A DNA stretch of 31,003 bases from a virus, in the IMG/VR virus record IMGVR_UViG_3300035698_001676, positions 1-31,003 of that record; one strand, given 5' to 3'. This document shows, piece after piece, positions 4,526-29,657 of the stretch (its first letter is position 1; the number at the start of each line of letters is the position of its first letter). Under the pieces are notes generated by a model that was not told the DNA's origin, did no database searches, and worked only from the letters and a program-made list of their open reading frames with translations. The translations under genes were made by a program, and so were the position numbers.

Positions 4526-4954
4526 ATGGCAAGTGGTGATGTATCGGGTTGTCTTGAAGTTAGTTTGGGATACGGGAATTTACTTAGATTTGATAGCGGA
4601 AAGTTTGGGATAGAATTTGACAGCACCGGTGGAATTGACGAAAGGGTTTGGGGAAAAGACCCAACTGCTGACGTAACTGCACAGGCTTTTTACCTTGAAT
4701 GTGTCCATCTTTCATCTGGTGACTCATCTGGTGGAACCGTGTCGCTAACTGATGGTTCTGGTGGCGCTAAGATAGTTACTTTACAGAGTGGTGATGCTTC
4801 CTATAGTGGCGGATTAAGCCAGAGTTGGGACTTTCGTGGTGATCCGCTGAGATGCCTTACGGCCGAAAGCACACAATCAGTGTGCATGAGTTCCACTGTA
4901 AACGGACTTTGCGGTGGATTTATTAAGGGTTATTGGGGGCCGGCAGGACTATAA
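4526..4954 (+). CDS. hypothetical beta-rich virion-region protein, 142 aa
   Basis: The start ATG has AGGGGA upstream. The product is Ser/Gly/Thr-rich with repeated short strand-like segments (SSGGTVSLTDGSGGAKIVTL) and a Cys-containing C-terminal third. The compact, low-charge composition is like phage decoration or neck proteins, but no family is recognised. Its TAA overlaps the ATG of the portal gene (TAATG at 4952-4956), so the two are translationally coupled. This suggests it is made with the portal, perhaps as a minor head component. Confidence 0.6.
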   Translation: MASGDVSGCLEVSLGYGNLLRFDSGKFGIEFDSTGGIDERVWGKDPTADVTAQAFYLECVHLSSGDSSGGTVSLTDGSGGAKIVTLQSGDASYSGGLSQSWDFRGDPLRCLTAESTQSVCMSSTVNGLCGGFIKGYWGPAGL

Positions 4955-7068
4955 TGATAGATGGATCTTTCATAGCAATGATTAAGGCCAAAGAAGACTC
5001 TGGCATGAATAAGACAAAGGATTGGGTATCCATGTGGCAGGAATCGCTCAGGTACTTTTTCGGCGACCAGCTTCATCATAAGAAAGAGCATAAGGAATGG
5101 GATTGGATTGTAATTAACTACATCTGGCCATCTGCTATGCAGGAGATAGCCAAGTTAAGCAAGAACTTCTCTGACATAAACGCTCTTCCGTGGGAAGAAA
5201 CAGACGCCGAAGCTGCCGAGGCATGGCAGAATATACTCCAATGGCAGTGGGAGAAGGGCCTTAATAACAACACTGGCATGCGTCTTGAGCAGATAATGGC
5301 CATACTTTGCGGCAAAATATTCGGCTATAGAGTCAGTAAGATATTCTGGGATGAGAAATGCTATTGGGACGACGATCAGAAGAAGTGGATGGGCGATGTT
5401 AAGCATAGACTGTGGCATCCCGCCGAGTTCTGGGCATCTGATAACGAGAAGATAGAGGAAGGTGACTGCGGTACTGTCCGATACGTAGAGGCTGAGTGGG
5501 CGATGTCGAGATGGCCTAGGTATAAGAAAGAGATTGAGTTAAAGGCAAGTTCCTATAAAGACCTTGCATCTGCTGGCGGGAATACAATCCGCGGTCAGCT
5601 TGCTTCTGCCGGTACATATCCGTCAGAGGGAAAGGGCGGCATAGATGCAGGAATAGGAACTTCACACAACCAGCTTCTTGACAGGATTATGAACTCTGAC
5701 AAGATGACTAACCAGACAGGTGACGACGATAGGAAGTTCGTAGAGTTAAGTGAGTGCTATTTCAAAGACTATGTAGAAGTAAAGCAAAAAGAAGAACGAG
5801 ATAGCACGGCAGAAGAGATGATGGCTAGTGGCGAGATTTACGCCCAAGGGGGGTTATTTTATGGCAAGGACGGTAAGGAGTTTCCGCAAGAAGATTGGCC
5901 TAAAATAACAATTAGAGAATGGAGCGAGCCTAAGTATCCATTTGGCCGCTATGTACTTCACATTGACGACCTTATCTTGAACCCAAAGGAAGAAGACCAG
6001 AGATACCCATACAAGCAATGGCCGTTCATTGTAACCCCTCACTACATGCTCCCGTTTATGTGGCAGGGCATTAATGGAGTTACGCTATATAAGAACGTAC
6101 AGGACATGATAAACGTCACGGTCAGCCACTTGACTAACAATATGAAGATGTTTGGCGACCCTAAGATAATCGTTGAGAAGGGTGCGATAGATACACCGCC
6201 TGGCAGGCACAAGGAGCACTTTAGAATCGGCAAGTCTGCTGGTTCTATCATCCGAGTTGTTAAGGGTGCTATAAGTGGAAATAGGGTAAAGATTGTAGAC
6301 CCAGTAACTCCATCGGCATCTGCCTTGCAGCTATACGGCCTGTTTACGCAAGAGTTCAAGAACCTCATAGGGTTGCAGGATGTAGCACAGGGCAAGGGCG
6401 GCCAGAACATGACCGCTACCGAATCCTCATATCTTGCAATTTCATCTCACGATAGAATAGCTTTACAGAACGTATACGAAACCGAATGGGTTCGTAGATG
6501 CTGTTCTCTTATTGCGGAGATATGCCAAAATAACTATGAGCCTGAACGGTGGGTACGGATTATTGGCGAGGATAAGAGTCCTGGCGTAATGCAGATTACT
6601 CAGCAGATGAGTCAGGTTAAGTTCGATATTGACATACAGCCGTCACCTGCGATACCACTTGACGCAGAGAGAAGGACTGGAAAGCTAATGAAGGCTTATG
6701 AATTACTTAGCGGTCCACCTAATCCAATGCTACCGGCGATACTAAAGGACTTGGAGGTTCCTAACTGGAGCAAGCTCTTGCAGGAGCATGGCATCTGGCA
6801 GGAGTATATGAAGTTCCAGCAGTTATACACAGCCGTTGCGGATGGCAAGATAAGCCCAGACGAGGGCGTTAGAATGTTAATAGAGGCTATCCAGCAGAAG
6901 GTTGGTAACAGTCTTAAACTTAAACAGAGGGACAATAAAGATGACAAGGGTACAGAAATCAAAACCGAGATTAAGCATGAAAAGAAAACCGACACCTCAA
7001 CTGATAGTCAAGTCCAAACCATTACCGAAACCAGACCCTCGGAAGATTCTGGAGGACAAGATAGATAA
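4954..7068 (+). CDS. portal protein (head-tail connector), 704 aa
   Basis: It would form the dodecameric portal ring at one capsid vertex, through which DNA is packaged and ejected. Length, position (before scaffold and capsid) and sequence fit a large podoviral portal: a Trp-rich N-terminal region (WQESLRYFFGDQL, then IWPSAMQEIAKLSKNFSDI), a central part with YKNVQDMINVTVSHLTNNMK, and the stem/wing pattern GQNMTATESSYLAISSHDRI followed by ETEWVRRCCSLIAEICQNN near residues 480-525. The C-terminal 60 residues are Lys/Glu/Thr/Asp-rich and low-complexity. ATG 4954 overlaps the previous stop and is preferred to the in-frame TTG at 4933. The last 128 bases also encode the start of a second gene in another frame. 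The portal call is strong; whether it is closer to the P22 or T7 type cannot be settled here. Confidence 0.85.
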   Translation: MIDGSFIAMIKAKEDSGMNKTKDWVSMWQESLRYFFGDQLHHKKEHKEWDWIVINYIWPSAMQEIAKLSKNFSDINALPWEETDAEAAEAWQNILQWQWEKGLNNNTGMRLEQIMAILCGKIFGYRVSKIFWDEKCYWDDDQKKWMGDVKHRLWHPAEFWASDNEKIEEGDCGTVRYVEAEWAMSRWPRYKKEIELKASSYKDLASAGGNTIRGQLASAGTYPSEGKGGIDAGIGTSHNQLLDRIMNSDKMTNQTGDDDRKFVELSECYFKDYVEVKQKEERDSTAEEMMASGEIYAQGGLFYGKDGKEFPQEDWPKITIREWSEPKYPFGRYVLHIDDLILNPKEEDQRYPYKQWPFIVTPHYMLPFMWQGINGVTLYKNVQDMINVTVSHLTNNMKMFGDPKIIVEKGAIDTPPGRHKEHFRIGKSAGSIIRVVKGAISGNRVKIVDPVTPSASALQLYGLFTQEFKNLIGLQDVAQGKGGQNMTATESSYLAISSHDRIALQNVYETEWVRRCCSLIAEICQNNYEPERWVRIIGEDKSPGVMQITQQMSQVKFDIDIQPSPAIPLDAERRTGKLMKAYELLSGPPNPMLPAILKDLEVPNWSKLLQEHGIWQEYMKFQQLYTAVADGKISPDEGVRMLIEAIQQKVGNSLKLKQRDNKDDKGTEIKTEIKHEKKTDTSTDSQVQTITETRPSEDSGGQDR

Positions 7069-7297: not shown

Positions 7298-8023
7298 ATG
7301 TCTAACGAAGAAACAGTAGCAATCGAAGAAACACCAGTAGAGAAACCAGCAACAGAGAATCAAGACGAGAAGTGGTCAAAAGAGAAACAGAGAGCAGATC
7401 AGGCTGAAGCCAGCACCAGAAGGTTATCTGCGGAAAAAGATGAGATTTCATCTCAGCTTGCAAGTAGAGATACTAAACTGGAAAAACTGGAACAGCGTTT
7501 GGTAGAGTTATCTGAATCTCAAGAAGTTCCTATAGAGGACTTGCTCGACCCTGACCTTGTAGATGCCAAGACCATTAAAACGGTTAGTAAGATGGCAAAG
7601 CAAATCAGGGAACAGAAGAAATCAATAGACAAGTTATCAAAACTTGCCGAAGGTTTCGAGGAAAGTTCTAGGCGAAACAGTGCTAAGTCAGAAAAAGAAA
7701 AGACCATTGAGCGTATTCTTGTTCCACTCGACGATGAATTCGGTGCTAAGTTCCGAAACTCGGCTAAGAAACTAGCAGACAAACTTGTAGATGACGGCGA
7801 AGAGAAACAACCAAGCGACGTTATTGACGCTATGAAGCTTCTAAGGAAGTGCTACAAGACTGTGGTTAAAGAGTCCGAGGAGAAGGTAACAAAAAAAGCT
7901 TTAAAGACTGATACAGGATCGTCTTCAGTATCTCTCGACGAGCATCTTCCTAAGTCTGGAAGCCGCAGGGATATATTGAAGGAGATGAAAAAAAAGGGAC
8001 TCAAATTGTTTGGGTCTGAATAA
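7298..8023 (+). CDS. capsid scaffolding protein, 241 aa
   Basis: This is a highly charged, Cys-poor, almost wholly helical protein immediately upstream of the major capsid gene, the classical place and composition of a scaffold, which templates procapsid assembly and then leaves. An acidic N-terminus (EETVAIEETPVEKPA) leads into a coiled coil at about residues 25-72 (KEKQRADQAEAS, KLEKLEQRLVELSES), a DLLDPDLVDAKTIKTV linker and more helix. The basic C-terminal hook (RRDILKEMKKKGLKLFGSE) resembles scaffold segments that bind coat protein. The ATG has GGAG seven bases upstream. No enzymatic motif or protease catalytic triad is apparent. Confidence 0.8.
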   Translation: MSNEETVAIEETPVEKPATENQDEKWSKEKQRADQAEASTRRLSAEKDEISSQLASRDTKLEKLEQRLVELSESQEVPIEDLLDPDLVDAKTIKTVSKMAKQIREQKKSIDKLSKLAEGFEESSRRNSAKSEKEKTIERILVPLDDEFGAKFRNSAKKLADKLVDDGEEKQPSDVIDAMKLLRKCYKTVVKESEEKVTKKALKTDTGSSSVSLDEHLPKSGSRRDILKEMKKKGLKLFGSE

Positions 8024-8030
8024 AAAACAT

Positions 8031-8062
8031 AAGGGGGAGAGTCGTAAAAGACTCTTATCAAT
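8031..8062 (+). promoter_or_regulatory. hairpin-bridged ribosome-binding site of the major capsid gene
   Basis: The only strong Shine-Dalgarno sequence (AAGGGGGAG, 8031-8039) lies too far from the ATG at 8063 in linear sequence. A perfect 6-bp hairpin between them (AGAGTC 8038-8043, loop GTAAAA, GACTCT 8050-8055) would bring it to about seven bases from the ATG if folded. RNA folds that shorten an over-long spacer are known in T4 (genes 25 and 38). Here it is inferred from sequence alone. Confidence 0.6.
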
Positions 8063-9094
8063 ATGGCTGTAAATGATTTATCAAATGCCACAAGGGAACT
8101 GTTTGAGCGTTCTTTGGTGGACGAAGTATATATGGCTACTCCGGTAGTTGAAGAGCTTCAACGGCGTAATCAAGTAACATATACCGGCGGCAAGTATCTT
8201 GAAAGACTTGTCGATACAGACGAGATTGACGACTTGATGCAGGAATACACTGCAAATACTGCACTTACAGATGAGGCGAAAGACACTCTAGAGTTACCTC
8301 GCTTCTTGTGGAAGTATGCACAGTTGCCGCTTAGGTACAACGTAGACGAATACACACAGAATGTACTTGCTGGTTCAGAAGAGCAAAAGTTAGACCTCGT
8401 AGACCATCTGGTCGAAAAGGGTCATAATGCTACGCGACTCTGGCTGAATAAGAAAATATTCAATAGTGGTTCAACTACTGGCGTATCTGACGGCGCAGTT
8501 GGTTTCCAGAGCTTAGTATCTGCACTTGATTCCGATACGACCTATGGAACACTAACTAGAAGTTGGTCAGGTGGAACGAATGATTGGTGGCAGGGTGCAG
8601 ACCCAGCCGGTCTTAACGTCAACACAACTACTTCGGCACAGGGTACTGCTTATAACATGAGTATCTCTAACCTCAGAAAGTGGATTACTGAAACAGACGT
8701 TTCTTTCCACATGAAGACTCCGACAGATTTATACATCTGTATGTGTCCGACACTGTTCAATAAGTTAAGAGCAGAGATGGAAGCAAAAGTTCAGTACACA
8801 CCTATGGGCGATTCACAGAAGCAAGGCTTTAATAAGATGGTGTTGGATGGACATACAATTGTTAGTGTGCCTTATCTTCAGACCACCTCCACAATGAGAA
8901 GTTGGGTATTCATCCTCAATCTTAATCATTGGGAATTGAGAATTCATACTGCACGTAATTTCAAGATGACTGATTTTAAGTGGCAGGGCGAAAACTCAAA
9001 CGGTTACGATTTCTGGCTGGCAAGAATCCTGATTTCAGGAAACCTTGTAAACTGGAAACCGAATAGCAATATGTTCTTATCGAACGTAAGCTAA
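8063..9094 (+). CDS. major capsid protein, 343 aa
   Basis: It follows the scaffold directly and has the size and pattern of a capsid protein that skips a large N-terminal prodomain. The N-terminus is helical (ELFERSLVDEVYMATPVVEE), followed by a YTGGKYLERLVD strand segment corresponding to an extended arm. A helix-rich middle leads to LRKWITETDVSFHMKTPTDLYICM and FNKLRAEMEAKVQY, like the peripheral-domain helices of HK97-fold coats. The C-terminal third is beta-rich (TIVSVPYLQTTSTMRSWVFI, then WELRIHTARNFKMTDFKWQG), typical of the axial domain. Expression is probably high: a bridging hairpin and a very purine-rich Shine-Dalgarno precede it. I do not see a cleavage site or a fused protease. 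Confidence 0.85.
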   Translation: MAVNDLSNATRELFERSLVDEVYMATPVVEELQRRNQVTYTGGKYLERLVDTDEIDDLMQEYTANTALTDEAKDTLELPRFLWKYAQLPLRYNVDEYTQNVLAGSEEQKLDLVDHLVEKGHNATRLWLNKKIFNSGSTTGVSDGAVGFQSLVSALDSDTTYGTLTRSWSGGTNDWWQGADPAGLNVNTTTSAQGTAYNMSISNLRKWITETDVSFHMKTPTDLYICMCPTLFNKLRAEMEAKVQYTPMGDSQKQGFNKMVLDGHTIVSVPYLQTTSTMRSWVFILNLNHWELRIHTARNFKMTDFKWQGENSNGYDFWLARILISGNLVNWKPNSNMFLSNVS

Positions 9095-10777: not shown

Positions 10778-11049
10778 TGCAAGCAGAGTTACAAAGATGT
10801 TTTAGTGCTCATGGTGTTAAGGGTGAGTGTGGATGTGTCAAGTTTGACATAGGTTCTCGCACAGTAGATGTTCCTGTGATTGTGAAGACTGTCTTCATGG
10901 GCTTCGGCCAGATGGAAACAGGAGACTGTCTGAATTCGCTGGTATGTACTTGCGAGAACAAAGTCAAAGATGGCAAGGTAACATTCACTAGGCACGGTGG
11001 TTTTTATAATGATAGTCCCAAGATGAATTTTCTTGTCTTGGGTTGGTGA
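10777..11049 (+). CDS. small Cys-rich virion-region protein, fourth repeat unit, 90 aa
   Basis: The start ATG at 10777 is coupled to the preceding stop (TAATG); an in-frame TTG at 10771 is less likely. Residues about 20-90 resemble the second unit of the preceding protein: VKFDIGSRTVDVPVIVKTVF, a GFGQM turn, Cys pairs (GDCLNSLVCTCENK), GKVTFTRHGG and a final MNFLVLGW, parallel to YSYMIAGW. Six Cys in 90 residues, including ECGC and CTC, is striking. It ends the small-protein series; two hairpins follow before the adaptor gene. Confidence 0.6.
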   Translation: MQAELQRCFSAHGVKGECGCVKFDIGSRTVDVPVIVKTVFMGFGQMETGDCLNSLVCTCENKVKDGKVTFTRHGGFYNDSPKMNFLVLGW

Positions 11050-12168: not shown

Positions 12169-12931
12169 TTTAGTTTTCGCGGCACAGGAAGCTGGCGCAG
12201 ATACTATCAAGGTGCAGATGTTTACTCCCGACCAGATGACTCTGAATAAGGATTGGGTTATTAAGGATGGTCAGTGGGGTGGGTACAATCTGTACTCGCT
12301 GTACGAAGAATCGGCAATGCCAATAGAGTTCGTGCCTAAGTTAAAGAAGCTTGCCGAACAACTTGGTCTTGGCTTCATAGCAACAGTGTACCATCCAGAC
12401 ATGGTTGACACAGCTATGGAAATGGGAATAGAAAGGTATAAGATTTCATCTTTCGAGATACCATGGCTTTCTTTCATCGAAAAGGTTGCAAGAACAAAAA
12501 AACAAGTTATCATGTCTTTGGGTATGGCGGATTACAAAGAGATAGACCGTGCCGTGAAGATGGTAAAGAAGTACAACCAAAGCCTTACCCTATTGTGGTG
12601 CATTAGTGAATATCCAGCAGAACCGGATAAGATGAACTTGAAGACCATGACTGGGATAGGACGCTCTTTCAAAAGTAAATATGGTTTAAGCGATCACTCA
12701 CACGGATACATCGCCCCAGCAGCGGCAGTGTCTTTAGGCGCCGTAATGCTGGAGAAGCACATACAGATAGACGGTGGATTGGATAGCAGGTTCGCTCTTA
12801 CGCCTGCCCAGTTCAAAGCGACAGTAGATGTAGTAAGAGCCACCGAGAGAAGCATCGGTGAAATAGCGTATGGCGGAAAGAAAAGGTTTAGAAGAAAGGA
12901 AGTGGACGGCAAATGGGTAAGGACTTGTTAG
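12110..12931 (+). CDS. neuB: NeuB/PseI/SpsE-type nonulosonic acid synthase, lacking the SAF domain
   Basis: Enzymes of this family condense phosphoenolpyruvate with a 6-carbon amino sugar to make a nine-carbon nonulosonic acid (sialic, legionaminic or pseudaminic type). Family motifs in TIM-barrel order: AELGASHKRD (residues 5-14, metal/PEP-binding His), IKVQMFTPDQM, LGFIATVYHP, YKISSFEIPW, VIMSLGMAD, YGLSDHSHGY (SDH motif), MLEKHIQIDGG and GLDSRFALTPAQF. The protein stops at 273 residues, after KKRFRRKEVDG. The usual C-terminal SAF (antifreeze-like) domain of about 60-70 residues, which in NeuB closes the partner active site, is absent; typical members are about 340-350 aa. The start has GGGAAGAAG close by. 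It overlaps genes on both sides. Which sugar it makes cannot be told. Confidence 0.88.
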   Translation: MEIVAELGASHKRDYQTALDLVFAAQEAGADTIKVQMFTPDQMTLNKDWVIKDGQWGGYNLYSLYEESAMPIEFVPKLKKLAEQLGLGFIATVYHPDMVDTAMEMGIERYKISSFEIPWLSFIEKVARTKKQVIMSLGMADYKEIDRAVKMVKKYNQSLTLLWCISEYPAEPDKMNLKTMTGIGRSFKSKYGLSDHSHGYIAPAAAVSLGAVMLEKHIQIDGGLDSRFALTPAQFKATVDVVRATERSIGEIAYGGKKRFRRKEVDGKWVRTC

Positions 12932-13839
12932 GTGCTACAGTATTGATTACTGGCGGTACAGGTTCTCTTGGCAAGGCACTAGCCAGAAGGATTCTTGACC
13001 AGAAACCAAAGAAGCTTATCATCTTTAGTAGAGATGAGTTTAAACAGTCAGAAATGGCTAAGGAATTTCCTGATAGCGAAATACGGTTCTTTATAGGGAA
13101 CATAAGAGATTCCGAAAGATTACGTCAGGCACTAGATGGTGTTGATTACGTGATACACGCAGCAGCCCTGAAACAAGTTCCGGCAATGGAATACAATCCA
13201 GAAGAAGCAGTTAAGACAAACGTAAATGGAAGCATGAATGTTATCAATGCTTGTATAGAGCGTGGCGTAAAGAAGTGTGTCCTTGTATCTACAGACAAGG
13301 CCGTCAGCCCTGTAAATCTTTATGGTGCTACTAAGCTGTGTGCAGAGAAACTCTTTATTGCGGCAAACGCATACAACAAGACTGAGTTTGTCTGTGTTAG
13401 ATATGGTAATGTGATGGGGTCGAGAGGCTCTGTTATACCTCTATTCCAGAAGCTAAGAGATTCAGGTGTAAGGAAGATACCTATAACATCCCTTGAGATG
13501 ACAAGGTTCTGGATAACACTTGACGAGGCAGTCAACTTGGTAATGCTTGCATTGGAAGTTGCTACCGGAGGAAGGATAATAATTCCAAGAGCACCGGCCA
13601 TGAAGATAATCGACGTGGCCAGGGCTATTATGCCTGACTGTGAATTTGAGGTTATTGGCGTGCGTGCTGGAGAGAAGATACACGAGGCATTGGTATTGAA
13701 TGACTTTGAGAATGTATCTATGGTTTCTCTTGACTGTGAATCTCATTATGAATGGAGCAAGCCATACACATCGGACACAGCAAAACAGTTGGATGTAGAT
13801 GTGTTCTTGTCAAAGATTGGAGACTCTCATGTTCAATAG
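12913..13839 (+). CDS. pseB: UDP-sugar 4,6-dehydratase (PseB/CapD type)
   Basis: This is a short-chain dehydrogenase/reductase-family enzyme expected to convert UDP-GlcNAc to a UDP-4-keto-6-deoxy sugar, the first step to pseudaminic or related sugars. The NAD(P)-binding motif GGTGSLG is at residues 14-20. FSRDE follows strand 2, then NIRDSERL, the HAAALKQVPAMEYNP signature of the PseB/FlaA1 group, VLVSTDKA, and the catalytic NLYGATK with Tyr137 and Lys141. ALKQVPAMEYNPEEAVKTN is near-diagnostic. At 308 residues it is slightly shorter than usual (about 330). It overlaps neuB by 19 bases and the reductase gene by 11. Whether it inverts C5 (PseB) or not cannot be decided by eye. Confidence 0.88.
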   Translation: MGKDLLGATVLITGGTGSLGKALARRILDQKPKKLIIFSRDEFKQSEMAKEFPDSEIRFFIGNIRDSERLRQALDGVDYVIHAAALKQVPAMEYNPEEAVKTNVNGSMNVINACIERGVKKCVLVSTDKAVSPVNLYGATKLCAEKLFIAANAYNKTEFVCVRYGNVMGSRGSVIPLFQKLRDSGVRKIPITSLEMTRFWITLDEAVNLVMLALEVATGGRIIIPRAPAMKIIDVARAIMPDCEFEVIGVRAGEKIHEALVLNDFENVSMVSLDCESHYEWSKPYTSDTAKQLDVDVFLSKIGDSHVQ

Positions 13840-14506
13840 AATAGCGATAGGTACTGCCAATTGGGGACAGGAATATAACGGCACTAAGGTTGACGAAGAA
13901 GAAGTAAAGAAGATACTCGATTACTGTACGTGCTGTGGAATAAACACGCTGGACACCGCCGAGGAATATGGAAGCGAAGAAGTTATAGGTAGATTGGCAA
14001 ACTCGTCATTCCATATAGTAACAAAGGGTAATGGAGACATTGAAAAGTCTCTTGATACGCTAGACAGACCTGGAGTGTACGGCTATCTCTGGCGAACACC
14101 AAATACATTTGGCTCGTTCAATATAATGGACAAAGCATACAAGACCGGAATGTCTTTATATGATGTTCCAGACCCTGGCCAGAAGTGGATGACAAAGCCA
14201 AAGATACTACAAGTCCCATACTCTCTAATGGATAGGAGATTTGAGCACTGTATGGAATACTGGCATAGAACTGGAATTGAAATACACGCAAGGTCTGTAT
14301 TCTTGAGAGGCAAGTGCCTTGAGAAGTCTACTCCAGAAGAATGTATTGCATTCGCACTATCTAACCAGAACGTAGACAAGGTTGTTATTGGGGCAGATTC
14401 TTCCAAGCAACTTAAAGACAACCTTGACTTCATACACAAATGGAATAAAATGAAATGCGAAGACGAAGAAATTATTGACCCACGAAAATGGAAGGAAGCA
14501 AAATGA
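13829..14506 (+). CDS. compact aldo/keto reductase, probably missing the catalytic His
   Basis: ATG 13829 follows TTGGAG and opens with the AKR-like strand FNRIAIGTANWG; the longer in-frame start at 13799 lies in the dehydratase gene and adds an unrelated peptide. Family features: GINTLDTAEEYG with Asp42 and Tyr47 of the tetrad, HIVTKG with Lys66, then ILQVPYSLMDRRFE, IEIHARSVFLRG and VDKVVIGADSSKQLKDNL. The fourth tetrad residue is normally His in 'YGYL.H'; here YGYLWR (residues 84-89) has Arg. At 225 residues it lacks much of the usual 280-320. Homologues occur beside NeuB/SpsF genes in bacterial surface-sugar loci. It may be a reduced reductase acting on the keto-sugar, or a catalytically altered binding protein. 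Confidence 0.8.
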   Translation: MFNRIAIGTANWGQEYNGTKVDEEEVKKILDYCTCCGINTLDTAEEYGSEEVIGRLANSSFHIVTKGNGDIEKSLDTLDRPGVYGYLWRTPNTFGSFNIMDKAYKTGMSLYDVPDPGQKWMTKPKILQVPYSLMDRRFEHCMEYWHRTGIEIHARSVFLRGKCLEKSTPEECIAFALSNQNVDKVVIGADSSKQLKDNLDFIHKWNKMKCEDEEIIDPRKWKEAK

Positions 14507-15888
14507 GTAACTGGGAAGAAACACTAGAGTACATCCCTGACGGGGTGCAGACATTAAGCAAGATGCCTAGTAAGCATGTAGATGGGGTTTACCCTAAGTA
14601 CATCGACAGGGCCAAGGGTGCTTATATATGGTGCGGAGATAAGAAGTATATCGACTATCCACTTGGTCTTGGGCCTATAGTTCTTGGCCATGCTAACGAG
14701 CATGTCAACAGAGCTATCATCGACCAATTACAAGATGGTATAGTTTACTCTCTGCCTAATAAGAAAGAAACTGAGCTTGCCAAGAAGATATGCGACATCA
14801 TACCAAGTGCAGAAATGGTAAGGTTTGTAAAGACTGGCTCGGAGGCTACAAGTGCGGCTATTAAAGCTGCAAGGGCGTACACGGAAAGAGAGAAGGTATT
14901 ATGTTGTGGCTATCACGGATGGCACGATTGGTTCTCTATAGTAAACGACAAGAAGGATGGAGTGCCGAAGTGTCTAGAGAGTTTAATATCGAAGTTTAAG
15001 TACAACGACATAGAAGACCTAAATAGGCAGATGGGCACAAAGGATAGTTGCGACATCGCTGCCGTTATCATGGAACCGTATATCCTAGAAGAACCCAACA
15101 AGGGATTCTTGGAAGACGTAAGAAGAATCTGTACCAGCCACGGAGCTGTACTGATATTCGATGAAGTAGTTACGGCGTTCCGTACAAAGAAGTGGAGTGC
15201 TCAGGCTTACTATGGCGTTACTCCGGATATGACAACCATAGGTAAGGCAATGGGAAATGGAATGCCCATAGGTTGCGTGTGTGGCAAGAAAGATATAATG
15301 GAAACATTGCAGAGAGACTGCTTTGTATCGTCAACTTTCGGGGGGGAGTTGGCTTCCATCTCGGCAGCTATAGCAACAATTGAGTACATTGAATCCCATA
15401 ACGTAATAGACCATATATGGAAAATGGGCGAAAGGCTCAAGAGCATGTTTGCTACCATTACGGACGGTATGGGAATCTCTGACGAAGTGAAGATAATCGG
15501 ACTACCGCCAAGAACTTACTTTGTATTTCCCACGATTGCACATAAGGCATTGTTCTGGCAGGAGTGTCTTGAGCGAGGCGTGTTGCTTGGCTATGCACAG
15601 TTCATTTCTTACAAGCACGATTTGAATGTAATTGACGAAACCATACGTGCCATGCGTGGCGCAATGAAAATCGTCAGGAAGTATTGGGATAAACCAGAAG
15701 ACGCACTTAAAGGAAGAGTGCCGGAAGAAACTTTTAGATTACCGGAGATGAAGAAGAATGAAGTTAATGCCGATAAGCTTGAAGGACTTGCAAAAAGCAA
15801 GATCGTGGAGAAACCAGAATCTAAGAACACTAAGAACACCGTATCCACTAATGGAGGAAGACCAATTAAGATTCCTGCAAAACTATGA
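14503..15888 (+). CDS. class III PLP aminotransferase (glutamate-1-semialdehyde type) with overprinted tail
   Basis: ATG 14503 forms a 4-base ATGA overlap with the reductase stop and follows GGAAGGAAGC. The PLP fold is clear: IDYPLGLGPIVLGHA, VRFVKTGSEATSAAIKAARA, GYHGWHDW, VIMEPYI, VLIFDEVVTAFR (cofactor Asp) and TIGKAMGNGMPIG with the Schiff-base Lys248. It is of the GSA-aminomutase/class III type found beside SpsF-like genes in bacterial surface-sugar loci. Here it probably aminates a keto-sugar intermediate; no DegT/PseC-type aminotransferase is present. The last 45 residues or so, after ETFRLPEM, are a Lys/Asn/Ser/Thr-rich tail lying entirely over the next gene in another frame. A haem-pathway role is unlikely in this context. 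Confidence 0.85.
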   Translation: MSNWEETLEYIPDGVQTLSKMPSKHVDGVYPKYIDRAKGAYIWCGDKKYIDYPLGLGPIVLGHANEHVNRAIIDQLQDGIVYSLPNKKETELAKKICDIIPSAEMVRFVKTGSEATSAAIKAARAYTEREKVLCCGYHGWHDWFSIVNDKKDGVPKCLESLISKFKYNDIEDLNRQMGTKDSCDIAAVIMEPYILEEPNKGFLEDVRRICTSHGAVLIFDEVVTAFRTKKWSAQAYYGVTPDMTTIGKAMGNGMPIGCVCGKKDIMETLQRDCFVSSTFGGELASISAAIATIEYIESHNVIDHIWKMGERLKSMFATITDGMGISDEVKIIGLPPRTYFVFPTIAHKALFWQECLERGVLLGYAQFISYKHDLNVIDETIRAMRGAMKIVRKYWDKPEDALKGRVPEETFRLPEMKKNEVNADKLEGLAKSKIVEKPESKNTKNTVSTNGGRPIKIPAKL

Positions 15889-27700: not shown

Positions 27701-27963
27701 AGGGTCAGAAGAAGGGTGGTAAACTTAAGGGTTCCTTAACTAAGTTCTCATTTAAAGATGGCGGCCCAGTTGAGTACGATCAAGTGTTATCATTCTTACT
27801 TTATGAGTTGAGAGCGTCCCAGCCAATACAGGTTCAGAACGCACTAATGTTTTTATCTGGTGAATCTGATGCCTTCGACGCTATATCCAAGAGTATTGGT
27901 CTGTCAATATCGTCAACAAGAAAACAAGAGAAGGGCAGAGTAAAGTATAAAAAGGTAGACTAA
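24703..27963 (+). CDS. large internal virion/ejection protein with LPD-like regions, 1086 aa
   Basis: This is the largest gene of the window and the third of the ejection set. It has a polar N-terminus (residues 1-95) and two Gly/Ala-rich, potentially membrane-inserting segments, at about 144-183 (FIANAVGQALPYMAASTVAT and following) and 297-319 (GSAALGGAIAGGVFGAGGAL). Between them are Lys-rich helices and the GIEEAVQETTSIAAEARINT signature common in large phage polyvalent proteins. The C-terminal half has the KRLGPQLKIQAALLEYRAQL, LFRLIALAPDWTESNIRTM and AFNYLMAAFDDDD blocks that I associate with the 'large polyvalent protein associated' (LPD38-type) region. I see no lysozyme/transglycosylase Glu motif. 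It probably forms the pore or conduit for DNA entry. Confidence 0.7.
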   Translation: MAYDSNSFFSKLNGATAVEPAPEVKDYSSDAFRAKLGEVSTPQIQADTNVAQPRQYEGFWGELGTAIKAGSLNAASGLTGTLATTIDKPTRGGVGFGATGFFDRPEFSKPRKKFAEDLEVTAQGLHEKSQSPEYAPGKDGGVPGFIANAVGQALPYMAASTVATVASGGNPVAGFAVGFSIEGDNAYRDAIKAGASKEDAQLNRIIVGTINGAIESLQVSNIIKFAKAGKGSVKELIKAASEKSIKKAIKAGKDLTLKGLQNMAREGIEEAVQETTSIAAEARINTDVLKGAGKRIGSAALGGAIAGGVFGAGGALVSRAGEDTAAIPVKIHSKQSLNVAQAEPSGQEVTPTVEPEVQKNMPLEAKTAPIRLTSDSKDTSALLDTFYAERDDKEMATNVATQNHQEELKRVSGTKKFGPVAKGWDMAMQVYIDLKDNPSQLKYYSKLSDTQKKMVDQAQNLPPEIKTLADNIIAENKQFGDIAVDNEVIRNSKDNYSARLWGKESTKGGLFKKFGTTTARAKGRTLEGILHGWSLGKVLQIQGATSAQNTAHRQVTQAVVDKQVLKLAKDWGLASPQQLNDWRRIEHPNFTTWKYAGKAKKGEAYGQNFFVTDDNRLMERVPMYAEPKLAKKLNTALEGSWLGKIPGVDWLTKWNSIIKQNILMTSFFHHQAYLRSYVGGAKTGLKNISPIAAYKKGGEAIRNYAPEVQQLVRGGLTIGKIQDWDESVLDRDGTVFNRVARHFKAGDKGLDVIDKIRKQQTDFLFKRLGPQLKIQAALLEYRAQLKKNNTKLEQGKITQHDIAKQVSDLMNDDFGGLNLRRMGRNQAGQHLFRLIALAPDWTESNIRTMVKSFNSRNEGAMYRAFWGRIALKLGLSTIAFNYLMAAFDDDDFVERYKKAWEAGNLKWLDVDITPIYKALGGKSGSRKYFSILGHFKDPIKFMVHPVRSAKHKSSVVTRMLADVFSGEDWAGRQFTSFSELLGIDNKGRYKTTSRRGGYSKGQKKGGKLKGSLTKFSFKDGGPVEYDQVLSFLLYELRASQPIQVQNALMFLSGESDAFDAISKSIGLSISSTRKQEKGRVKYKKVD

Positions 27964-29657
27964 TGGAACCAACAGACACCCTTAGTAGTATAAACTGGAT
28001 AGCGGAGAACTTGGAAATTATTAACAAGGACGGGCAATTAGTCCCCCTTGACCCCAATGACGGCCAATTGATGCTTGCGTCCGTAATACAAAGGCAGAGA
28101 GATGCAGGCTTCCCCGTAAGGATACTCCTGCTCAAGCCCAGACAGGTAGGGTGGAGTACATGGAGTGAAGGTGAGGGCTTCTACGAAGTCAACTCACGCA
28201 AGAACTGGACGGCTCTATGCGTATCTGCTGATACAGAGTCTACGGATATGGTCTTTAATATGACCAGAACATTCCAGTCACATCTTCCCAAGAAAATACA
28301 AAGACCAACAGTAGCAAGTAACCGCAAGGAGATTAGGTACAAAGAACCTCACGGCTCTAAGTTCCTGACCCAGACTGCCGGTAAAGATGTTCTTGGCCGT
28401 GGCGGTACGATACATTTCTTTCACGGCTCAGAGGTTGCGTTCTGGCCTAAAGCCAAAGAGGGTTTGGCGGCTGTCTTGCAGATGGTTCCGAAGAACCCCG
28501 ACACAATAGTGATCTTAGAGACTACGGCCAATGGTGTTGGTGGTGCATACTATGATATGTACTGGCAGGCGGTTGACAGGATGAAGGCAACTGATTCACT
28601 AGAGGGCTATCTTCCAATATTCTTTCCTTGGTACAAGTTCGCAGACTACGCTACAATCACTCCAGACAATTTCGTGGCAGACGAAGATGAGAGAATAGTA
28701 CAGAAAGAGTTCGAGCTTAATGATGCACAGATATATTGGCGCAGGCTAAAGATACAGGAGCTTGGTGGTGACGAGGCCATGTTCCGTCAGGAATACCCAG
28801 CTACAGCAATGGAGGCTTTCCAGACTGCTGGTAATCCAGTTTTCCTACAGTCAATGTTCAAGTATCAAAAGCAGTTCATTAAGAAGCCGAGAAGGTGTGT
28901 ACTTACTCAGGATGGATTAGAAGATGTCCAGAGAACATTTAACTGCTGGAAGATAAGGCAATTGCCATGTGCTAATCACGAATACGCAATTGGTGTAGAT
29001 ACGATGGAGTCAAGAATATCTGACGTAGCAGATATAAAGAGTTCCCTTGACGCGGATGGCGTTGCTATATTTGACAGGACTTCCGGCGAGTATGTAGCTA
29101 TATACCAAGGTCGTGGCGATCAGGTTGACTTGGGTTGGCAAGTGTACTATGCGGCCACGTTCTACAACGAGGCATACATAGCCCCTGAAATACCAAACGG
29201 CATGACCCTGCTCAACATCTTTAAGAATAAGGGTTACGACAATATATATAATAGGCAGGTACATGACCAGCAACTAACCATACAGGATTCCGAGAATCTA
29301 GGGTGGAGAACAGATATGGTTACTCGTAAATGGCTTGTGGATGACTTCAGAAGCGCTCTAAGAGAAAACAGTTTCATACTAGGATTCGACGAGATACTAA
29401 ACGAAATGATGTCGTTCTGTTACGACAAGAGCGGCAAGCCTATTCATTTACCTGGCAAGCATGACGACCTTTTGTTTGCTGCAATGATAGCATTTCAGGT
29501 ACATAAGAGATGCCCGATTGGGGAGAAGCCTTACAGCCATGCGTTTACTGGCGAAGAGACTGAGAAGAGAAACAGCGTACAGTCTTTGGCTACAGTTGGC
29601 GCTATAGATATGGGAGTGGAGGAGGAGGAATATAATGACGATTCTTTTACTGACTAG
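27963..29657 (+). CDS. terL: terminase large subunit, 564 aa
   Basis: This is the ATPase-nuclease of the packaging motor. ATPase: Walker A variant KPRQVGWST at residues 58-66 (Lys58), the IHFFHGSEVAFW Walker B/SE block near 157-168, and motif III ILETTANG about residue 181. Nuclease: RNase H-like acidic residues in AIGVDTMES (Asp346), then PEIPNGMTLL and PGKHDDLLFA (Asp501/502). Length and motifs fit the P22/T4-like large terminase superfamily. The ATG overlaps the ejection-protein stop (TAATG). Its place at the far end from the small subunit, behind the ejection genes, is atypical. The last 23 bases overlap a small membrane protein gene. Confidence 0.93.
   Translation: MEPTDTLSSINWIAENLEIINKDGQLVPLDPNDGQLMLASVIQRQRDAGFPVRILLLKPRQVGWSTWSEGEGFYEVNSRKNWTALCVSADTESTDMVFNMTRTFQSHLPKKIQRPTVASNRKEIRYKEPHGSKFLTQTAGKDVLGRGGTIHFFHGSEVAFWPKAKEGLAAVLQMVPKNPDTIVILETTANGVGGAYYDMYWQAVDRMKATDSLEGYLPIFFPWYKFADYATITPDNFVADEDERIVQKEFELNDAQIYWRRLKIQELGGDEAMFRQEYPATAMEAFQTAGNPVFLQSMFKYQKQFIKKPRRCVLTQDGLEDVQRTFNCWKIRQLPCANHEYAIGVDTMESRISDVADIKSSLDADGVAIFDRTSGEYVAIYQGRGDQVDLGWQVYYAATFYNEAYIAPEIPNGMTLLNIFKNKGYDNIYNRQVHDQQLTIQDSENLGWRTDMVTRKWLVDDFRSALRENSFILGFDEILNEMMSFCYDKSGKPIHLPGKHDDLLFAAMIAFQVHKRCPIGEKPYSHAFTGEETEKRNSVQSLATVGAIDMGVEEEEYNDDSFTD

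Follow-up and report, generated by a model that had tools for sequence, protein, structure and literature searches.

A hairpin that likely bridges the over-long Shine-Dalgarno spacer of a viral major capsid gene

The major capsid protein gene of a viral record of 31003 bases (IMGVR_UViG_3300035698_001676, taken whole and referred to here as the window) is preceded by a strong Shine-Dalgarno (SD) sequence that lies much further from the start codon than ordinary spacing allows, and a perfect hairpin sits directly between the two. The observation of the hairpin and of the over-long spacing is confirmed, and bridging of this long spacer by the hairpin is likely. The site is probably an accommodated (split) ribosome-binding site of the kind known from phage T4 genes 38 and 25, independently acquired. 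The computational basis for this assignment is the geometry of the leader, its rarity, its predicted stability and the fact that the leader is longer than those of close relatives by the length of the hairpin.

Anatomy of the capsid leader

The features of the region, all on the + strand, are as follows.

7298..8023, +, upstream gene, 241 aa, ending 14 nt before the hairpin
8030..8037, +, Shine-Dalgarno TAAGGGGG, -9.9 kcal/mol with the anti-SD, one G-U pair, raw aligned spacing 24
8038..8043, +, hairpin 5' arm AGAGTC (from sequence and fold)
8044..8049, +, hairpin loop GTAAAA (from sequence and fold)
8050..8055, +, hairpin 3' arm GACTCT (from sequence and fold)
8056..8062, +, residual spacer TATCAAT, 7 nt, from hairpin to start codon (from sequence)
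8063..9094, +, major capsid protein gene, 343 aa, matching PHROG 9953 'major head protein' (E 2.2e-12)

The capsid start at 8063 is secure, because an in-frame TAA lies upstream of it at 8045-8047 and because the capsid proteins of most relatives start at the same place or within a few residues. The leader letters at 8029-8037 read ATAAGGGGG. Pairing was scored against the common anti-SD, ACCUCCUUA, and no run of at least three pairs with it occurs at an aligned spacing of 2-12 before the capsid ATG, in agreement with the first-pass annotation, which had stated that no closer site exists. The SD had been placed there 23-25 bases from the ATG, and this distance holds as well: 25 nt separate the ATG from the last G of GGGGG, or 23 nt when the SD is taken to extend to the end of GGGGGAG. 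The hairpin (8038-8055) spans 18 nt with six perfect Watson-Crick pairs, to which a G-U pair 8037-8056 may be added, and lies flush against the SD. Once it is excised, 7 nt remain to the ATG, which bears out the earlier description of a perfect 6-bp hairpin reducing the effective distance to about seven bases.

The upstream gene has no PHROG or Pfam match, and its position suggests that it may encode a scaffold. Over its last codons lies a second stem-loop (7997-8017, GGACUCAAA-UUG-UUUGGGUCU) with predicted pair probabilities of 0.54-1.0 and a counterpart, GGACUU...AAGUCC or similar, in three close relatives of the window (L001, L002 and L015), with an A-U pair replaced by U-A in L002; one pair is broken in a fourth (L003), and the window has two pairs on gaps and one G-U pair. 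Further upstream is a P22-like portal gene (4933-7068), and a terminase large subunit-like gene (27963-29657) lies well away from it, towards the opposite end of the record. Downstream of the capsid gene, a nucleotide-sugar epimerase-like gene (12913-13839) and a class III aminotransferase gene (14488-15888) possibly form a sugar-modification pair. Relatives were not found in the bacterial genomes scanned (genome_contigs), nor among annotated phages compared by capsid or portal protein, and the window contains no Rfam 15 match at the gathering score.

A chance origin of this geometry is unlikely. The fold of the 25-nt spacer (-7.7 kcal/mol) has P values of 0.0012 against 5000 mononucleotide shuffles and 0.0025 against 2000 dinucleotide shuffles, and the fold in 60-nt context has a z-score of -3.7, with none of 200 shuffles equally stable. 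Bridged leaders were defined by a loose criterion (no proximal SD, a distal SD, a hairpin at most 3 nt from the SD and 5-12 nt left to the ATG) and by a strict form in which SD and hairpin each lie at or below -7 kcal/mol. Shuffling of the 60-nt leader produced the strict form in 13 and the loose form in 589 of 60000 sequences, figures that rank the leader more than they prove it, since the thresholds were set after leaders had been read. Across both strands of the window, 15 of 1075 ATGs have the loose form. The capsid ATG comes top by summed energies, though narrowly (-17.6 versus -17.5 for the ATG at 10868, which has a weak SD); among the 12 matches listed, it has the best SD and alone has both energies at or below -7.

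Predicted folding and ribosome binding

In the proposed mechanism, the anti-SD of the 30S subunit would pair with TAAGGGGG at 8030-8037, while the 18-nt hairpin would remain folded, flush on the SD:anti-SD helix, looping out the extra spacer. The 7 nt of TATCAAT would then cover the remaining distance to the P-site AUG, just as at an ordinary SD with 7-nt spacing. Ribosomes would use this bridged site, and the stem would raise capsid translation. Folding calculations are consistent with such a complex: the hairpin is predicted at a probability of 0.97 with SD and start bound, and the cost of opening the SD, the start and the remaining spacer is 9.2 kcal/mol with the hairpin kept and 16.6 kcal/mol with the hairpin melted too, so that the ribosome would gain by the hairpin staying folded.

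The minimum free energy (MFE) structure of the free 60-nt RNA extends beyond the 6-bp stem and pairs G residues of the SD as well as UAUG with CAUA. The hairpin might accordingly act chiefly to inhibit or regulate, with the extension (GG/UC and CAUA/UAUG) sequestering part of the SD and AUG and keeping capsid translation low until opened by the ribosome or by a factor. Freeing the SD together with the start is predicted to cost 9.1 kcal/mol in the window versus 7.0 kcal/mol in T4 gene 38, hence some damping of capsid translation is possible. However, freeing the SD itself costs 4.7 kcal/mol and is outweighed by the -9.9 kcal/mol of the SD duplex; gene 38, whose site has been tested, has an almost equal SD cost (4.8 kcal/mol), and in three leaders of a second capsid clade described below the cost is just 0.3-1.3 kcal/mol. 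A mainly inhibitory hairpin is thus held to be unlikely.

Under the preferred bridging model, the site looks constitutive rather than a switch. The first-pass annotation had tied capsid translation to RNA folding, for example through temperature or ribosome unfolding. The bridging part of this proposal is supported by the geometry, the rarity, the 18-nt gain, the analogous leaders and the T4 precedents; the regulatory part is not. Temperature control is unsupported because the stem is predicted to be closed from 10 to 55 °C (pair probabilities of 0.96-1.0), which would make it no thermometer at equilibrium, and an RNA thermometer was rejected on these values. Control by ribosome unfolding finds no support either: the upstream gene stops at 8023, outside the stem, and a ribosome terminating there would reach the SD, not the stem. 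Pairing of the 5' arm with GACTC at 7998-8002, within the upstream gene, was also rejected, with a predicted probability of at most 6e-6.

Capsid leaders of the relatives

Protein scans of IMG/VR returned 38 contigs with a capsid relative, which together with the window give 39 leaders; a further scan brought no more. Removal of nine identical or near-identical ones (L004, L010, L014, L022, L023, L074, L077, L079 and L081) left 30 distinct leaders, comprising 22 with an ordinary SD, 4 without SD, 1 with a distal SD inside a stem (L009) and 3 that are bridged (the window, L005 and L027). Counted from the last paired base, 21 of the ordinary leaders have a gap of 4-10 nt and the remaining one, L012, a gap of 12 nt; the looped-out gap of the window is 7 nt. 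Only 4 of 400 shuffled leader sets held three bridged members; the excess over chance in the 30-leader set is modest, and L005 and L027 are related. Among leaders with a distal SD only, three of four are bridged, compared with 176 of 2779 in shuffles. In L009 (4420-4494) and L010, a 7-bp repeat, GGAGTCC/GGACTCC, surrounds the sole good capsid SD and would hide it, not bridge it; both were rejected as bridging cases (spacer fold P 0.74-0.94, with the repeat read by eye as enclosing the SD).

The four leaders without SD (L007, L008, L011 and L076) have none better than -0.8 kcal/mol within 50 nt, indicating that an SD is dispensable in some members of the family. By extension, the distal SD of the window could be unused, an A/U-rich leader and S1 being sufficient and the insertion a tolerated neutral event. 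Yet the window SD is the fourth strongest among the 39 leaders, behind L013 and the near-identical L078 and L079, and an insertion free of selection would rarely fold exactly and still keep the gap normal; an unused SD is accordingly judged very improbable. L014, too, has a capsid leader with no SD-like site in these 50 nt, in contrast to most of the family.

The closest relatives, L001, L002, L003 and L015, have capsid proteins 85-87% identical to that of the window (over 149 residues for L015), and their leaders carry A(A)AGG at ordinary spacing without a hairpin. Each shows an 18-column gap between the SD region and the start when aligned with the window. Eighteen columns is the length of the hairpin, and the aligner places the gap at window positions 8036-8053, 2 nt before the hairpin. 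With the hairpin absent from these four distinct relatives, the lineage of the window provides no covariation for its pairing. Conservation among near relatives, as reported for T4 gene 25, was not found in these four, and is a mark of the gene 25 case rather than a condition of the bridging mechanism. The conserved pairing in relatives that the first-pass annotation had named as a test is thus missing from the four distinct closest ones, which have an ordinary SD and no hairpin, and present in another capsid clade: pairing is not conserved in the window's own lineage, yet the architecture recurs in the family.

In this second clade (L005, L027 and L012), the leader has a GGAG followed by a hairpin, with 8-10 nt remaining before the ATG. 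L012 was classed as ordinary because GAGG in its 3' arm lies at an aligned spacing of 11. The spacer folds are each, taken alone, weak to moderate by their P values against mono- and dinucleotide shuffles (0.028 and 0.063 for L005, 0.054 and 0.054 for L027, 0.008 and 0.030 for L012). The three leaders align without gaps through the hairpin and share the loop CYTAAKAAG. All 15 of 15 cells pair in the five outer pairs, three of which are changed on both sides (C-G to A-U, A-U to C-G and G-C to C-G) and one further pair on one side. In slid versions of the stem, 13-67% of cells pair, and 25 of 500 column shuffles were as good as the stem, a value thought to be near the limit attainable with three rows. 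Predicted fold support in context is uneven: at 37 °C, pair probabilities in a -60..+40 context are 0.55-0.81 for L005, 0.03 for L027 and 0.02-0.03 for L012, and mean values in a -60..+35 context are 0.90, 0.69 and 0.83, rising to 0.96, 0.75 and 0.95, respectively, with SD and start bound.

The capsid tree (28 rows, with L080 and L090 left out) joins L005 with L012 (89/81), beside L027, L041 and L050 (89/92), the last two having ordinary SDs. The window and four ordinary relatives form a set of their own (five rows, 100/100), and the deeper forks are not settled. Three changes on this tree are required to account for the three bridged rows. Together with unlike stems, we read this as bridged sites having arisen at least twice, in the window and in the L005/L012/L027 clade, with repeated loss as the alternative.

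The inverted repeat might instead act on the DNA or the transcript, as a terminator, operator or RNase processing site. Indeed, GGGAGAGTC-N6-GACTCT matched in 30 stretches of viral_contigs, and other phage contigs contain similar GGGAGAGTC-N6-GACTCT(CCC) repeats, with T-rich sequence behind several of them. At the capsid site, however, no T-run follows the hairpin and there is no terminator-like match, and the stems of L005 and L012 occupy the same position with sequences unrelated to that of the window stem. We regard a role of this kind as the remotest of the explanations considered. An intrinsic terminator at 8038-8055 was specifically rejected, as the stem is followed by TATCAATATGG, and no promoter was found at the hairpin site.

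The GGGAGAGTC-N6-GACTCTCCC repeats were seen in L094, L095, L101, L103, L104, L106, L107, L117 and others, and those with T-rich flanks are perhaps terminators. Just two frames of more than 30 aa start 5-12 nt behind the repeat: one of 106 aa in L103, opening with TTG, and one of 45 aa in L100, opening with ATG. In L094, an ATG frame of 145 aa starts 15 nt behind the repeat, the stem of which includes GGG; in L096 and L102 the repeat is followed by long frames, but an SD-like AAGGA(G) stands between the two.

Comparison with phage T4 and significance

The bridging mechanism is already known, and the window adds a probable example. According to the review PMC3014915, RNA folding in T4 genes 38 and 25 places a remote SD at a distance from which it can function, and destabilising changes lower initiation; bridging in gene 25 is confirmed by reporters and DMS probing. 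The review counts spacings of 22 reduced to 5 in gene 38 and of 27 reduced to 11 in gene 25, and attributes the 'accommodated' ribosome-binding site of gene 25 to Nivinskas 1999 and to Malys and Nivinskas 2009. Both T4 leaders are recovered by the criterion used here, with SD-hairpin and hairpin-AUG gaps of 1 and 7 in gene 38, 1 and 8 in gene 25, and 0 and 7 in the window. The window thus displays the marks of a split site: an SD beyond linear spacing (aligned 24) with nothing proximal (2-12), and a stable hairpin (-7.7 kcal/mol) leaving a normal gap (0 and 7).

Gene 38 resembles the window in having a strong SD (UAAGGAG, -7.5), a 22-nt spacer and a stable hairpin (-8.6) that directly follows the SD and leaves 7 nt before the AUG in the computed fold; its SD costs 4.8 kcal/mol to free, as against 4.7 in the window. 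It differs in being a tail-fibre assembly gene of a phage without detected kinship to the window and in having a UUCG tetraloop instead of a 6-nt loop; moreover, its function has been tested by mutation in T4, whereas the window is known from sequence. Gene 25 shares an 18-nt hairpin between SD and AUG, with 8 nt left in the computed fold, and is bridged in one part of its phage group and not elsewhere in it. The gene 25 site differs in falling within the end of the gene 26 coding sequence and in its SD, a weak GAGG (-3.7); the window site is intergenic, has a strong SD, serves a capsid gene and is without a hairpin in its closest relatives.

A background scan applied the loose criterion to the first ATG of each ORF. 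In two T4 pieces it picked out 2 of 16 ORFs, and these were genes 38 and 25 themselves. Over all genes there is no enrichment for the loose criterion, which was matched by 4 of 201 ORFs in the capsid relatives (48 of 2010 shuffled) and by none of 201 in the 30 contigs sharing only the repeat pattern (49 of 2010 shuffled). The four matches in the relatives divide into 3 of 25 capsid starts versus 1 of 176 others (one-sided Fisher 0.006, with thresholds set afterwards), and in the sole non-capsid match the first ATG belongs to an ORF close to the beginning of locus L006. In an earlier scan, in which the start was chosen by best proximal SD, 4 of 227 ORFs were distal-only and L005 was not listed. 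Start-choosing programs that use linear SD spacing will misjudge such genes, as happened here with L005.

The tested hairpin-bridged sites found in print are those of T4 genes 38 and 25; subscription papers were thinly covered and others may exist. A literature search joined to 'major capsid' found no paper. The window is apparently an independent and clean example of this known, rare arrangement, in a capsid gene.

A capsid gene needs to be translated in very large amounts. A broader and rather doubtful reading is that bridged sites arose at least twice in the family and that a hairpin flush on the SD:anti-SD helix may be favoured, not merely tolerated, at the capsid start, perhaps because it makes the initiation complex or the mRNA more stable. 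A T4-like anatomy in a different phage group, beside closely related capsid genes without the hairpin, provides a natural with-and-without comparison of one gene.
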